Shown here piece by piece: positions 27,897 to 32,689 of a stretch of 33,455 nt of DNA (positions are counted from its first letter, which is position 1; every line of letters begins with the position of its first letter). The stretch covers positions 1 to 33,455 of IMG/VR virus record IMGVR_UViG_3300028548_000278; one strand, given 5' to 3'. The notes beneath the pieces are model-generated. The model was not told the DNA's origin and did no database searches. It saw only the letters and a list, made by a program, of their open reading frames with translations. A program made the translations under genes and the position numbers. The DNA is from a virus.

Positions 27897-27933
27897 TACC
27901 CCCCGCCTGTCTCGGAAACAGGTTAGGGGGGTA
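27897..27933 (-). terminator. Intrinsic terminator between converging gene blocks
   Basis: TACCCCCC pairs with GGGGGGTA (eight pairs). Inside, after a small internal loop, CCTGT pairs with ACAGG around a seven-base loop CTCGGAA. Read leftward, the hairpin is followed by six T (the complement of A27891-A27896), so it is a canonical Rho-independent terminator for the replication genes. Read rightward it is followed by AAAAGGGGG, without a U tract, so its effect on the structural transcript is less certain. The A tract overlaps the stop codon of the giant gene. This gap (27893-27953) holds nothing else clear. Confidence 0.85.
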
Positions 27934-28170: not shown

Positions 28171-30972
28171 CTAATCGTCTACCCCAACACTGGAACAGTC
28201 TACAGATATAACTGTAGTAGGCGGCAATTGAGTTGGGGTACCCTTAGTAAGCCGCATCTTCACAGACTTACCGCCAAACTTATCTTTCAGATCCTGCACG
28301 AACGAGCCATAGTTTATCTGCTGTCTACCACACCATGCCTTGAGGGGCTTAGGTATTAGGTACACGCGCTTGATGTCTGTCTCGTACCTACCCACCAAAC
28401 GAATCTTAGGGTCGAGTTCAGGTATAACCAAACTGTCTAGCCCGTTGTCGTTTTGCTTACGTAGATCGTCAGTGCTCTTGATCTTTAGGATGCTACCCCA
28501 GTTCTCGTGGATGTAGTCATTCAATGTATCTGTTACCGAACTACTCATGTCATTAACTCCGTTCTTATTTTCTTTTAGCAATCTAACAACGTAGGCCATC
28601 AGCTTTTTGGTGTCGTAATCAATCAGCCCTAACTTGTTAGCTATAATAACGCCAGTAACTGTACACGCCGCACCCGCTGACCAGAAGCGATTCTCTGCGG
28701 TTAACCCTGCCGCCGTATCAATGCGTCTTTGCACGTTGGCTAGTAGTGCCTTAACCTGTGGAAGGTTGTTCATAATATACTTAATGTATATTGGCCCCGC
28801 ATGTCCGTACACTGTGGTAGCTCTCTTCGCGTGTTCGTCCGTCAGTGCCTTAGTCTCAGGATCAGTAAACAGCTTGACCGCCTTGGCCTCCATCATACGT
28901 TGAGCTTCCGCTTTCGGCATGTTCTTAACCATACTAACCCGCTCAATAATACTCGTGTTACCGGTACTAACCGCTAATAAACTCCACGGCTTGCCACGTG
29001 CGCGTTCTGCGTTGCTGCCTCCCGACATACGATTCCGCTGCTTACCACTAGAGATTTGGTAGATGAGGTCAGATAGCTCGTCACCCTTAGCGTTTGTAAG
29101 TTCGTCAATGTACAACGGTAGGTTATGGTACACCTCTCCACGGTTCATACGTGACGCTTGCGAATCGTCCTCTGACAGCACCATGCCTTCAGGCTCCGCC
29201 CATACGGATGCCCCTACGAACATGGCTGTAGTCTTACCTACACCAGAGTCCTTACTGTGGATATGAAACCCTGCACAAGCGATAGGAGAGAACTCCATAA
29301 GCGGAGATCCAAACGCCGTACCTACTATGTACTGGTGCATCTCAAAGCCATCTTTGTTATAGAAGTTAGCCATGTCCTTCCACTCCTTTAGCGTTCCCTT
29401 TGGCTCAAACAAGTGCATAAGTCCGGTAGTAGCTGTAGAAGGAGGGTTAAACTTAACTTCTGTTGCGGTCAGTTCTTGGTTACCCAGTACAAACGCATCG
29501 TGGTTATCGTCTGTCCAACCAAACTGTCTACGGGCGGCATCGGCTGTACTGTTAGCCTGTAGCTCATTAACCCATGTGGTAGTGTAATTCATTAGGTCAT
29601 CCATCTTGGTTACAGCTACACCTTGCATTGCCATCTGCTTACGGAACTCTTCGCGGGATGTAACTGACGTTAAAGGTACAGTGAACTCACGTACGCCATC
29701 ACGTGGTAGGTGTAGACGCATAACCACAGCCTCACCTATCTCTTCGTCTAGGATACGTTTCACTACGTACAAGTCGTTGTGGTATATAGGAGTCTCATCC
29801 ATATCCCCATCTTCATTACGACTACGTATGTACACACCACCGTTCTGCCCTCGGAAGTATGGCTTAGGGTATTCAGGTATTGTATACACATTGGTTGGGC
29901 TGTTCGGTAAGTTTAGAGCCGGTGCTTCTACCACGTTGTCAGATGGCGCAGCGCGGAGTACTTTGTTACCTAGTGTGATGGGGGATTTAACCTTACCCCA
30001 GTTCGGGCAGTCACCACATACATCAGGATTGAACTCGTCGAAAGACGTACACAAGTATGGGCCTTTAATACCATCCATCTTAGCCGCAGTATCTTCTACG
30101 TTATACCCTTCGTGGTTCTTTGATATGTTACGTGCGGCAACCTCAGAGTCTGAACAGAACTTAGCAATAGATAATCCTGCACGCCACATAGGCTCGCTAC
30201 AGTTCTCTTGGTCTTTCCATATAGTCCTCAACTGCTCACAGCCTTTACCATTCATGGTCTTAGCTATGATGTCTTTAAAAGATGCTTCGGTGTTACCCAT
30301 CAGGGTCTGCATAACGGCATTCGCATTACCACTAGCACTCTTCGGTGGGAGTATCACGGGGCCGCCAACCATGTCTGAGAACTTATCAAAGTCTACAGGG
30401 TCAGGTGCGGATGCGGCGAAGTAGTCAACCTTACATGGTGGGTTTGTTTTGTGGTTACGTGTTTTAGGTACACGTAGTACCCTAGCTGCATCGGCAGTAA
30501 CAGACGGATCTGCCAGTAGCCCATGTACAACACACTGTTTCTTGAGACGTTCTGCTACAGGCAACCATTCATCTAGAGTCACTGACTCAGTAAGGAACCA
30601 GTACGCGTGAACGCCTCTCCCTGAGTTGACTAGCATAGGTCTTGGTAGCTTCTGAGCTACGCAGAAATCGTTTAGTGCATCTAATGCTTCTGCTTGGTCG
30701 GGGTATTCTTTCCCGTCACCGCAGTCTAAGTCTAGGAAGAAAGACTTTAAGTGTTTCACATTGTCTACTTTTCGAGAGTTTGATTCTGTAAATGTACTTA
30801 GTGCAAAATACGAATCATATCCATCCTCGTCATACTTGTACGCCGCGCTAACTAGATCCCCTAGGGAATCGTAGAACTTCTGTACTCTGCGACCTTCCGC
30901 AGTGCGACTTGCAAATAAGCAGTAGTATCCTTCGTTCCCCAACGTCTTGCTTAGAAATACTTCTGTATTCAT
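28171..30972 (-). CDS. Fused AEP primase and DUF927-type helicase
   Basis: A 933-residue replication protein. The N-terminal archaeo-eukaryotic-primase-type domain (about 1-190) has D81-L-D83 (FFLDLDCGDG), SGRGVH at 117-122 with His122, and D161-A-A-R followed by VLRVPKTRNHK. A linker near 305-335 has a Cys cluster (GPYLCTSFDEF, then DVCGDCPNW), perhaps zinc binding. The C-terminal ATPase (about 550-720) has SGVGKTT with Lys580 as Walker A, LPLYIDELTN with D623-E624 as Walker B, and a later LLAVSTGNTS. This is the DUF927 pattern. It should prime and unwind phage DNA. A structured 105-base leader precedes the ATG, with AGG eight bases upstream. Confidence 0.85.
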   Translation of the reverse strand: MNTEVFLSKTLGNEGYYCLFASRTAEGRRVQKFYDSLGDLVSAAYKYDEDGYDSYFALSTFTESNSRKVDNVKHLKSFFLDLDCGDGKEYPDQAEALDALNDFCVAQKLPRPMLVNSGRGVHAYWFLTESVTLDEWLPVAERLKKQCVVHGLLADPSVTADAARVLRVPKTRNHKTNPPCKVDYFAASAPDPVDFDKFSDMVGGPVILPPKSASGNANAVMQTLMGNTEASFKDIIAKTMNGKGCEQLRTIWKDQENCSEPMWRAGLSIAKFCSDSEVAARNISKNHEGYNVEDTAAKMDGIKGPYLCTSFDEFNPDVCGDCPNWGKVKSPITLGNKVLRAAPSDNVVEAPALNLPNSPTNVYTIPEYPKPYFRGQNGGVYIRSRNEDGDMDETPIYHNDLYVVKRILDEEIGEAVVMRLHLPRDGVREFTVPLTSVTSREEFRKQMAMQGVAVTKMDDLMNYTTTWVNELQANSTADAARRQFGWTDDNHDAFVLGNQELTATEVKFNPPSTATTGLMHLFEPKGTLKEWKDMANFYNKDGFEMHQYIVGTAFGSPLMEFSPIACAGFHIHSKDSGVGKTTAMFVGASVWAEPEGMVLSEDDSQASRMNRGEVYHNLPLYIDELTNAKGDELSDLIYQISSGKQRNRMSGGSNAERARGKPWSLLAVSTGNTSIIERVSMVKNMPKAEAQRMMEAKAVKLFTDPETKALTDEHAKRATTVYGHAGPIYIKYIMNNLPQVKALLANVQRRIDTAAGLTAENRFWSAGAACTVTGVIIANKLGLIDYDTKKLMAYVVRLLKENKNGVNDMSSSVTDTLNDYIHENWGSILKIKSTDDLRKQNDNGLDSLVIPELDPKIRLVGRYETDIKRVYLIPKPLKAWCGRQQINYGSFVQDLKDKFGGKSVKMRLTKGTPTQLPPTTVISVDCSSVGVDD

Positions 30973-31077
30973 AACTTTTACCTAATTCCGAGAGTCGTCA
31001 CAGCGGGGGCACCGAAGTGCCCTTTTCAGGTAATCAGCCCTAGCTGTGAGGATTAGTTTTAAATTGGGACTAAGTTA
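30973..31077 (-). promoter_or_regulatory. Structured leader before the primase-helicase gene
   Basis: This 105-base gap between the ssDNA-binding-type gene and the primase gene holds nested inverted repeats. Read leftward: CTAATCC and TCACAGC come first, then a GGGCAC-TTCG-GTGCCC hairpin (31022 to 31007), then GCTGTGA, then GGAATTAGG. The heptamers pair (30998-31004 with 31043-31049), and CTAATCC can pair with GGAATTAG with one bulged A. The last element ends in the AGG ribosome site. A TTACCT in the middle (31028-31033) can also pair with AGGTAA over that site (30978-30983). Two alternative folds could open or close primase translation. Regulation is inference. Confidence 0.55.
31007..31026 (+). 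terminator. Hairpin with rightward T tract, C(UUCG)G loop leftward
   Basis: GGGCAC-CGAA-GTGCCC followed by TTTT reads as a short intrinsic terminator for rightward (antisense) transcription. In the leftward mRNA the same hairpin carries a C(UUCG)G tetraloop, an unusually stable fold, and lacks a U tract. It may serve as a nucleation point or a barrier in the leader rather than a stop for the replication transcript. Confidence 0.45.
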
Positions 31078-31782
31078 CTAGTCGTCCCATTCATCGACGA
31101 TTGATGCAAGGTCAGCATCATCTTTTGGTGCGGGAGCCGTTTTCTTTACTATCTTCTTAGGCTCAGAGACTTTTTCCTTTGGTTCGTCCTCAAAGATGTC
31201 ATCACTTACTGCTTCTGCGGCAGCCTTAGGAACATCTTGCACTTCAAATGGGTTTTCGTCAACCTCTAATTCAAAGCCGTCAACAACATCGAACGGAGAA
31301 GCCGCAGATTGTGGGGCTTGATACTTGGTAACCTGTACTGCTTTAAGGCGTAGTGATACACCATTGTCACGCATGTTATAAGGTACAAACACAACTGCGA
31401 TGTTACCAACACTACCAGTGGTGAGCTTAAAGTCTTCAGGAAGTTCTTTACTCTTGGCATCGTACTGCTTAGGTTTGGCGGTAGCATCTTTACCATACGC
31501 ACCCTTGAGTACAGCTTTACCTACGTACTTACCATCATCATCCTTCTCGAACGGCATAGCTAACTTCTCAGGCCAAGACTTCTCTCTCTTTTCCGCGTAG
31601 GCAGTTGCCATAGCTTCGTACAAGGACTTGGCTTGGTCTTTGTCCATACGGAACTTAGTCTCATACTTAGCGCCATCTTCAAACACATCACATGGGATGC
31701 TCTTGTTCTCGGCGTTGTCGAATCGGTAGCACTGGTTTACACGTGGGTAAAGGATTTCTACGTTACTTATTAAATGGGTCAT
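31078..31782 (-). CDS. Putative ssDNA-binding protein (DUF2815 / gp2.5-like)
   Basis: A 234-residue protein. The first 170 residues are beta-rich (VEILYPRVNQCYRFDN, then LTTGSVGNIAVVFVPYNMRD and GVSLRLKAVQVTKYQ), fitting an OB-fold of the DUF2815 or T7 gp2.5 type. The last 60 residues are a disordered Lys/Ala/Pro/Asp-rich tail ending DDADLASIVDEWDD. An acidic tip with aromatic Trp is typical of ssDNA-binding proteins that recruit polymerase and helicase. It lies directly before the primase-helicase gene, as in many phage replication modules. Its ATG has AACTATAGGA eight bases upstream. Family assignment is from pattern, not from a profile search. Confidence 0.7.
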   Translation of the reverse strand: MTHLISNVEILYPRVNQCYRFDNAENKSIPCDVFEDGAKYETKFRMDKDQAKSLYEAMATAYAEKREKSWPEKLAMPFEKDDDGKYVGKAVLKGAYGKDATAKPKQYDAKSKELPEDFKLTTGSVGNIAVVFVPYNMRDNGVSLRLKAVQVTKYQAPQSAASPFDVVDGFELEVDENPFEVQDVPKAAAEAVSDDIFEDEPKEKVSEPKKIVKKTAPAPKDDADLASIVDEWDD

Positions 31783-31800: not shown

Positions 31801-32462
31801 TAATTTGCTTCAAATTCAAATCCAGATACTTCACCAAAGGGGGAAGTTACTACCGTTGGGGTATACTCATCATGCTGTATAGCCGCAACAGTGTCGGAGT
31901 CAGTAATCATATTATCTACTACCTCCAACTCTCCCTCGTTCAATGAACGCATAGGTTTGAAAAAGAGTTTGGGTATTGCACTTTCTTTATCTGTATATAT
32001 TCGGGTAACAATGCCTGTAGTGTTCGAGCCACGTGCGGATAGAAACTTCACGTACTCTTGCAGGGGCATGTTGCCATTACTCCCTCTACCGTATATCGAA
32101 GTAGCGGGTATTTGTAGTCTATAAACTACACTTGGGTCTTCTGCAAGTGTCACAGCAAGTCTCTGTGAGAACCTACATGCTCTACCCCCAAAGGAACCTG
32201 AACCTCTAACATTCTGAGGGCAGTCCATACACCTGTGGGATTGCTTCTGGTCATCAGGTATGCCCGTAACGGGGCGCTGCGTATCACCTGACCAACAGAG
32301 TGGAGCCTTTGCTACATTAGGGTCATACGTCTCCGAGTAAAAGTACCGAGCAATGGGGGCAGCGTTCACAATAACTACATCAATATAATCTTTAGCTTGT
32401 GATGCTACGTCACCGTCTATGGTTCTAATCTCTCCACCACGTAGGGTGATCCGACGTTTCAT
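31800..32462 (-). CDS. Replication-module protein with Cys cluster, unknown function
   Basis: A 220-residue protein from the chosen start (MKRRITLRGGEIRTIDGDVA). Four Cys residues in the middle (LCWSGD, then RCMDCPQN, then RACRFS, about residues 62-110) are spaced like a zinc-binding module. The second half (VVYRLQIPATSIYGRG and LQEYVKFLSARGSNTTGIV) looks beta-rich, and the C-terminus is acidic. I chose the ATG at 32462, which overlaps the HTH gene's stop as TAATG; a start at 32489 would lie well within that gene. It sits between the HTH and ssDNA-binding-type genes in a replication operon. A DNA-binding or recombination role is plausible but unproven. Confidence 0.65.
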   Translation of the reverse strand: MKRRITLRGGEIRTIDGDVASQAKDYIDVVIVNAAPIARYFYSETYDPNVAKAPLCWSGDTQRPVTGIPDDQKQSHRCMDCPQNVRGSGSFGGRACRFSQRLAVTLAEDPSVVYRLQIPATSIYGRGSNGNMPLQEYVKFLSARGSNTTGIVTRIYTDKESAIPKLFFKPMRSLNEGELEVVDNMITDSDTVAAIQHDEYTPTVVTSPFGEVSGFEFEAN

Positions 32463-32689
32463 TATACTTCGTCCGTATGTTCTACCCATCCTAAATCAAC
32501 ATCTTCCGGTGTATGTGCAGTGTCAGTCAGTGCCGCATCTAGTGCATCTAGATTAAAACGGTACGTACTACCTACCTTGATGTAGGTGTTGGCAGGGATC
32601 TCCCCTTTCCGCATCCACGAGCGTACAGTCGATACCGATATACTGAAGTACTTAGCAACTCCTTCAATTGGTACATATTTTGTTTCCAT
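32462..32689 (-). CDS. Excisionase/MerR-like HTH DNA-binding protein
   Basis: A 75-residue protein whose first 55 residues form an HTH_17-type domain: VPIEGVAKYFSISVSTVRSW, then MRKGEIPANTYIKVGSTYRF. The pattern 'A-x-x-x-x-x-S-x-x-T-V-R-x-W-x-x-x-G-x-I-P' followed by a beta-wing is characteristic of excisionase-like winged helices. The last 20 residues are acidic. With no integrase in view it more likely regulates transcription or directs a replication protein to DNA than acts in excision. Its ATG overlaps the stop of the preceding gene as TAATG with AGGAAG upstream, and its stop overlaps the next ATG the same way. Confidence 0.85.
   Translation of the reverse strand: METKYVPIEGVAKYFSISVSTVRSWMRKGEIPANTYIKVGSTYRFNLDALDAALTDTAHTPEDVDLGWVEHTDEV

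Follow-up and report, generated by a model that had tools for sequence, protein, structure and literature searches.

A conserved three-way-junction RNA upstream of phage primase genes and its apparent relation to the int-alpA RNA

What is held in the 105 nt that divide two replication genes of a marine phage, and what might it do there? The window, by which we mean the whole stretch of 33,455 nucleotides that was analyzed (IMG/VR record IMGVR_UViG_3300028548_000278), carries a gene for a single-stranded DNA-binding protein (SSB) followed by a primase gene, and the gap between them had been read in an earlier note as a possible RNA switch that hides the ribosome site of the primase under feedback control by the SSB. 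The features of the locus are listed here.

31078 to 31782, minus strand: upstream gene, Enc34/Gp2.5-like ssDNA-binding protein (ORF list; phrog_112, E 4e-16)
31065 to 31089, minus strand: UGGGAC/GUCCCA hairpin around the SSB stop codon (minimum-free-energy fold of the window only)
30973 to 31077, minus strand: intercistronic gap with the RNA element (ORF list; covariance model match at 30970-31065, 87 bits)
30981 to 30983, minus strand: Shine-Dalgarno AGG of the primase (sequence)
28171 to 30972, minus strand: downstream gene, DUF927 primase/helicase (ORF list; PF06048, E 3e-23; phrog_8841 and phrog_1139)

The primase start codon, ATG, occupies 30972-30970 on the minus strand. The identity of the upstream gene as a probable ssDNA-binding protein, as the earlier note had it, is borne out by the phrog_112 match, and a PF10991 match (E 3e-5) falls slightly short of the PF10991 cutoff. 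The hairpin at the SSB stop codon spans the codons W-D-D-stop, and relatives repeat a similar GGGAY..UCCC at the SSB stop. Within the same operon, a small HTH_17/excisionase-like gene (32462-32689, minus strand) recalls the AlpA gene beside the int-alpA RNA, and a hairpin between six C and six G followed by UAUUUUUU (27900-27922, minus strand), which sits 3' of the last leftward ORF, is likely the operon terminator.

Comparison with relatives indicates that the gap holds a genuine, conserved three-way-junction RNA, in which the stem P2 (4-10 bp across relatives) surrounds the hairpins P3 and P4. Its parts in the window, from 5' to 3' of the leftward mRNA, are given below.

31050 to 31056, minus strand: 5' strand of P1, an optional outer stem (partner 30982-30989), not general
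31043 to 31049, minus strand: 5' strand of P2, TCACAGC, covarying helix
31041 to 31042, minus strand: J2/3 strand UA, near-invariant in the comparison with relatives
31028 to 31040, minus strand: P3 hairpin GGGCTGATTACCT, 3 bp GGG/CCU including one G-U
31023 to 31027, minus strand: J3/4 strand GAAAA (consensus GAARA), near-invariant
31007 to 31022, minus strand: P4 hairpin GGGCAC-UUCG-GUGCCC, covarying helix
31005 to 31006, minus strand: J4/2 strand CC, which is CU in nearly all relatives
30998 to 31004, minus strand: 3' strand of P2, GCTGTGA, covarying helix
30988 to 30994, minus strand: tail CUCUCGG, 9 nt past the junction G, fixed

All of the pairings named in the earlier note were located on the leftward strand, including the 7-bp pairing of TCACAGC (31049-31043) with GCTGTGA (31004-30998) and the C(UUCG)G hairpin (GGGCAC-TTCG-GTGCCC, 31022-31007), which correspond to P2 and P4. 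Thermodynamic folding favored the gap over shuffled sequences (z = -2.4, with 2 of 200 shuffles equally good), and the comparative data place both inner stems far beyond chance. The first comparison set comprised at least 80 IMG/VR relatives of the SSB, in many of which the stems of the gap differ and the unpaired strands are shared, and the first consensus structure had compensatory changes in 10 of 14 pairs. Double changes were found in 12 of the 14 stem pairs (11-12 across the sets), with 95.8% of cells paired and a covariation score of 0.503 versus 0.218 for shuffled alignments (0 of 500 shuffles as high), although fitting the alignments to the model leans these counts toward the structure. 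The score fell to 0.03-0.11 when the alignment was slid by 1-3 columns, and a wider sequence set reproduced the stem covariation. Independently of this fit, an anchor-based count of the well-paired positions found about 30 cells with G-U and none with A-C; since G-U is present and A-C absent, it is the mRNA strand that is structured, and the same asymmetry disfavors a DNA-level element. In P3, the second pair is GC in most relatives and otherwise AU, CG, or UA, with supporting changes from GG/CC to GC/GC, GA/UC, and GU/AC. The gaps of L134, L141, L083, L251, L278, L296, and L312 contain one more hairpin, distinct from these and located 5' of P2.

The tail (consensus CUYUCGG) keeps a constant spacing of 9 nt to the junction and a variable spacing to the AUG, and it therefore belongs to the element. 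In distant members, including those of E. coli, the P4 loop and the tail are complementary strands that covary, forming a pseudoknot that Rfam leaves unannotated. Loop and tail read CGCCGCAG:CUGCGGCG in L453, CGCCGCG:CGCGGUG in L468, GCCGUCA:UGACGGU in L484, UGUGCC:GGCACA in L514, and ACCUUA:UAAGGU and GCCUUA:UAAGGC in E. coli. Among unselected lineages, real loop-tail pairs gave 14.4 versus 10.0 for swapped ones, with 0 of 2000 as high, and some lineages of the main family retain GCCGA:UCGGC or ACCGA:UCGGU. In the window's clade, P4 carries tetraloops that vary freely (UUCG, GCAA, GUAA, and UCAC), and sequence comparison found no loop-tail pairing there; this clade has lost the pseudoknot, with the UUCG loop taking the place of the pseudoknot loop. 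The CUYUCGG tail (30988-30994 in the window) is nearly invariant even in clades without the pseudoknot, and no partner for it was found. A pseudoknot between CCGA of P3 and J3/4 and UCGG of the tail was rejected, as P3 changes (GC..GC in L252, L263, and L269 and GU..AC in L395) have no counterpart in the tail, and a bulged CCGAARAG:CUYUCGG helix was rejected as well, the R and the Y showing no covariation.

How much of the proposed switch is kept outside the window? The outer stem, CTAATCC (31056-31050) with GGAATTAG (30989-30982), exists in the window and is not general among relatives; its mean z in 67 relatives was -0.23 versus shuffled sequence, and it does occur in the L061 clade, where changes on its two strands compensate each other. 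Compensatory change among relatives, by which the earlier note had proposed to judge its structure, is thus strong for the inner stems and no better than in shuffled sequence for the outer one. The alternative pairing of TTACCT (31033-31028) with AGGTAA (30983-30978) is also present in the window, is restricted to a few sequences, and is not kept by relatives. Both the outer stem and this alternative appear, from their occurrence, to be clade-specific or chance. The Shine-Dalgarno sequence had a median unpaired probability of 0.37 across 68 sequences, a value taken without a shuffle control; part of the AGG is paired in the minimum-free-energy fold of the window, and pairing of the Shine-Dalgarno sequence is seen only in some clades, for example that of L061. 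Its predicted occlusion would therefore be partial and variable across relatives. Because the stem extending to the AGG does not outdo shuffles in most relatives and the alternative pairing is not conserved, sequestration of the ribosome site is not supported as the conserved mechanism, and these results together with those on occlusion imply that the switch as drawn in the earlier note is not what evolution keeps. What survives of that proposal is an RNA control element that is structured, on the mRNA strand, selected, linked to the primase start, and probably cis-regulatory.

The window had no match to Rfam at curated thresholds, and known ribozymes and riboswitches were set aside on that ground; in an inspection by eye for a hammerhead, CUGANGA was missing. 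The best match of the gap was the int-alpA RNA, RF02996, at 24.9 bits (E 0.0018 over 161 bases), under the 35.8-bit cutoff. Searches from more distant primases recovered the same junction, with strand lengths of 2/5/2 and wholly different stems, directly upstream of primase, and RF02996 scored above its cutoff in five distant loci (L489, L509, L453, L471, and L484; 36-48 bits). The consensus core of RF02996, CUAG...CGAAAAG...CCUG, is common to the distant primase loci. In the other direction, model R1, built from close relatives only, gave 36.5 bits for L478, 30.9 for L489, and 18.2 for L552, and it also matched L514 and L484, so that continuity runs through intermediates. Given the shared core, the best match, and these cross-matches, the RNA of the window appears to represent a divergent int-alpA-type branch, not a member by the curated cutoff.

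Like the RNA of the window, the int-alpA RNA has three nested stems joined by strands of 2/5/2 with the sequences UA, GAAAA, and CU (CC in the window), and it is likewise intercistronic, shortly 5' of an ORF; the phages and satellites that carry it have HTH (AlpA-like) and DUF927 genes. The E. coli RF02996 RNA lies just 3' of the integrase gene and ~24 nt 5' of the next ORF; the E. coli elements also carry an HTH gene, and L550 adds toprim and DUF927 genes. Unlike int-alpA, the element of the window lies in the SSB-primase gap and not after an integrase or between integrase and alpA, and its tail, CUCUCGG, has no U-tract, whereas the tail is U-rich in L453-L468 and the E. coli members; it also differs from the distant int-alpA members in being without the loop-tail pseudoknot. 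The P3 loop GACG recurs in L453, L489, L509, and L551, including distant lineages, and in the int-alpA RNA of E. coli, and this recurrence makes it a possible contact site. An RF02996 search of 14 bacterial genomes gave no match, the controls being silent too, and our literature search came upon no established function for the int-alpA RNA. The C4 antisense RNA (RF01695; C4 of P1/P7 and the CI RNA of P4) is also a three-way junction of phages and satellites near primase operons, and C4 RNAs co-occur with int-alpA in the same E. coli elements, but its junction strands are about 0/0/7, its conserved loops are other ones, and its covariance model had no match in the window. The immunity RNA of phage P4 itself, considered as an int-alpA RNA, proved to be C4 instead.

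A DNA pattern made from the conserved strands only, and thus blind to genes, was used to scan all IMG/VR viral contigs. Among the sites listed, 76 of 78 distinct sites were real by the covariance model and all 76 of these precede primase; an SSB is visible upstream in 75 of the 76 real sites listed, the remaining one being lost to a contig end. For bacterial and archaeal genomes (257 Gb), 25 matches were among those listed, all without the stems, and they look like chance. All of these locus and pattern counts are lower bounds (at least), and frequencies drawn from them are not estimates. Each of 13 RNA-bearing records (up to 58 kb) has one convincing copy, the covariance model finds one copy in the window, and a nucleotide search of cultured phages with the gap region gave no match. 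In the distant phages L453-L468, no SSB homologue was detected upstream and the junction RNA still precedes primase, indicating that the RNA goes with primase and not with SSB; in L320, an HTH gene lies directly upstream of the junction RNA.

Some phages share this gene order and have a plain hairpin, usually with a U-run, at the site of the RNA in the gap; in the TERM clade, for example, an SSB of the same family is followed by a plain terminator hairpin instead of the RNA. Quick, unrooted trees of primase and SSB, in which RNA-bearing loci are overrepresented because of how loci were fetched, both place the hairpin-bearing phages in a single group that sits among RNA-bearing ones. Further exchanges occur at 58-69% primase identity (L514 versus L516/L517, L320 versus L322, and L471 versus L482/L523), and the replacement hairpins of L482 and L523 have no U-tract. 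Internal terminators of sister phages thus occupy the same place as the RNA and are repeatedly exchanged with it, but they are plain hairpins, often with a U-run, and have no conserved junction core. E. coli dnaG is preceded by a terminator, which offers an analogy for plain hairpins before primase. Held to the features of an intrinsic terminator (a strong stem and an immediate U-run), the element of the window is not listed by a terminator scan; by inspection, these features are present in some distant members, and L453-L468 have the junction plus a U-rich tail after P2. No gene was found to separate RNA-bearing from terminator-bearing phage genomes among the incomplete records compared, which thus give no sign of a dedicated trans factor. 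In the SSB-helicase gap of the Roseobacter phages CRP-811 (L225) and CRP-406 (L226), an A-run and then a GC-rich hairpin come right after SSB; read on the opposite strand, they would form a terminator. The gap of L260/L309, from a phage nested among RNA-bearing ones, has a junction-like fold (CACGC/GCGUG, GAUAUAUC, GGGGGC..GCCCCC) in which the conserved strands are missing, suggesting a decayed or different element.

The reading that we favor, tentatively and at a little short of even confidence, is a cis-acting intercistronic attenuator that holds primase low relative to SSB. Beyond the structure, strand, position, and family relation read from the comparisons, we infer attenuation and its direction from the exchange with hairpins, the position before a start codon, and the U-rich or pseudoknotted tails of sister lineages. 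The RNA would fold in the nascent or mature polycistronic mRNA, where P2 and the tail would reduce passage into primase, or primase translation, and one mRNA would yield less primase than ssDNA-binding protein. In lineages with U-rich tails, the RNA could serve as an intrinsic terminator, and in those with the pseudoknot, the helix of P4 loop and tail would sit shortly 5' of the ribosome site. Intrinsic termination is unlikely in the window's clade, given the poor U-tract CUCUCGG and a P2 of only 4-5 bp in some relatives; there, the U-tail and the pseudoknot would have been reduced and the junction core and CUYUCGG would remain, perhaps bound by a host factor. Attenuation does not, however, explain the near-invariant junction strands, and the replacement hairpins without a U-tract and the Rfam class of int-alpA, sRNA, also stand against it. 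That sRNA typing, the U-rich tails of distant members, which could form a 3' end, and the C4 antisense RNAs in the same satellites would fit a trans-acting sRNA freed from the 3' end of the SSB mRNA by termination or processing, with its exposed loop aimed at a phage or host transcript. We consider this unlikely, as a scan of the window found neither a promoter-like site at the element nor a terminator at its end, the P4 loops of the window's clade vary freely, unlike a seed, and the element is always close 5' of the downstream start.

The fixed distance of the tail to the junction and its variable distance to the AUG would also suit an element of processing or mRNA stability, in which the SSB message would be parted from that of primase, either at a site of endonuclease cleavage or self-cleavage that lies at ruler distance within the tail or by means of an exonuclease barrier. 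The plain hairpins that take its place, some of them lacking a U-tract, and the combination of junction and loop-tail pseudoknot in distant members agree with such a role, yet the Rfam ribozyme families gave no match and each phage has a single genomic context, and we regard it as rather unlikely. It is improbable, in our estimate, that the UA/GAARA/CU core is a sensor to which a small molecule, or a factor from host or phage, binds to gate primase expression, with int-alpA as the satellite version. A riboswitch-like switch, sensing a metabolite or protein through the junction plus, in lineages that have it, the pseudoknot by the ribosome site, would account for the near-invariance of the unpaired strands and for a pseudoknot near the ribosome site; with the window's clade lacking that pseudoknot, and repeated replacement by plain hairpins suggesting that sensing is dispensable, we hold it to be quite improbable. 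The operator in T4 gp32 mRNA is a leader pseudoknot, which likewise joins a phage SSB gene to a structured mRNA. PMC535899 describes gp32 as an SSB that binds its own mRNA, a precedent for the autogenous control suggested in the earlier note, by which the SSB would bind the RNA and shut down primase translation by sequestering the ribosome site. In the window and its close relatives, the SSB gene is the immediate upstream neighbor, and the minimum-free-energy fold pairs part of the AGG. The gp32 operator, however, acts on the mRNA of the SSB itself, whereas the RNA described here follows SSB, precedes primase, and also occurs without SSB. With the same core before primase where an upstream SSB homologue was not found, a ribosome-site-hiding stem that is not conserved, and relatives with a similar SSB and no RNA, SSB feedback is very improbable. 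The rivals to attenuation thus stand in about the order sRNA, processing or stability, sensor, and SSB feedback.

These data widen the range of the int-alpA RNA type to include many environmental phages, and they add a covarying pseudoknot, a consistent cis position, and an exchange with plain hairpins. Throughout, the RNA is placed consistently shortly 5' of a downstream start codon, that of primase in the phages found here. An orphan RNA thereby acquires a testable cis-regulatory hypothesis, namely that it sets the phage balance of primase versus SSB, and if the sensor reading were true, a widespread and hitherto unassigned RNA switch would time phage replication.
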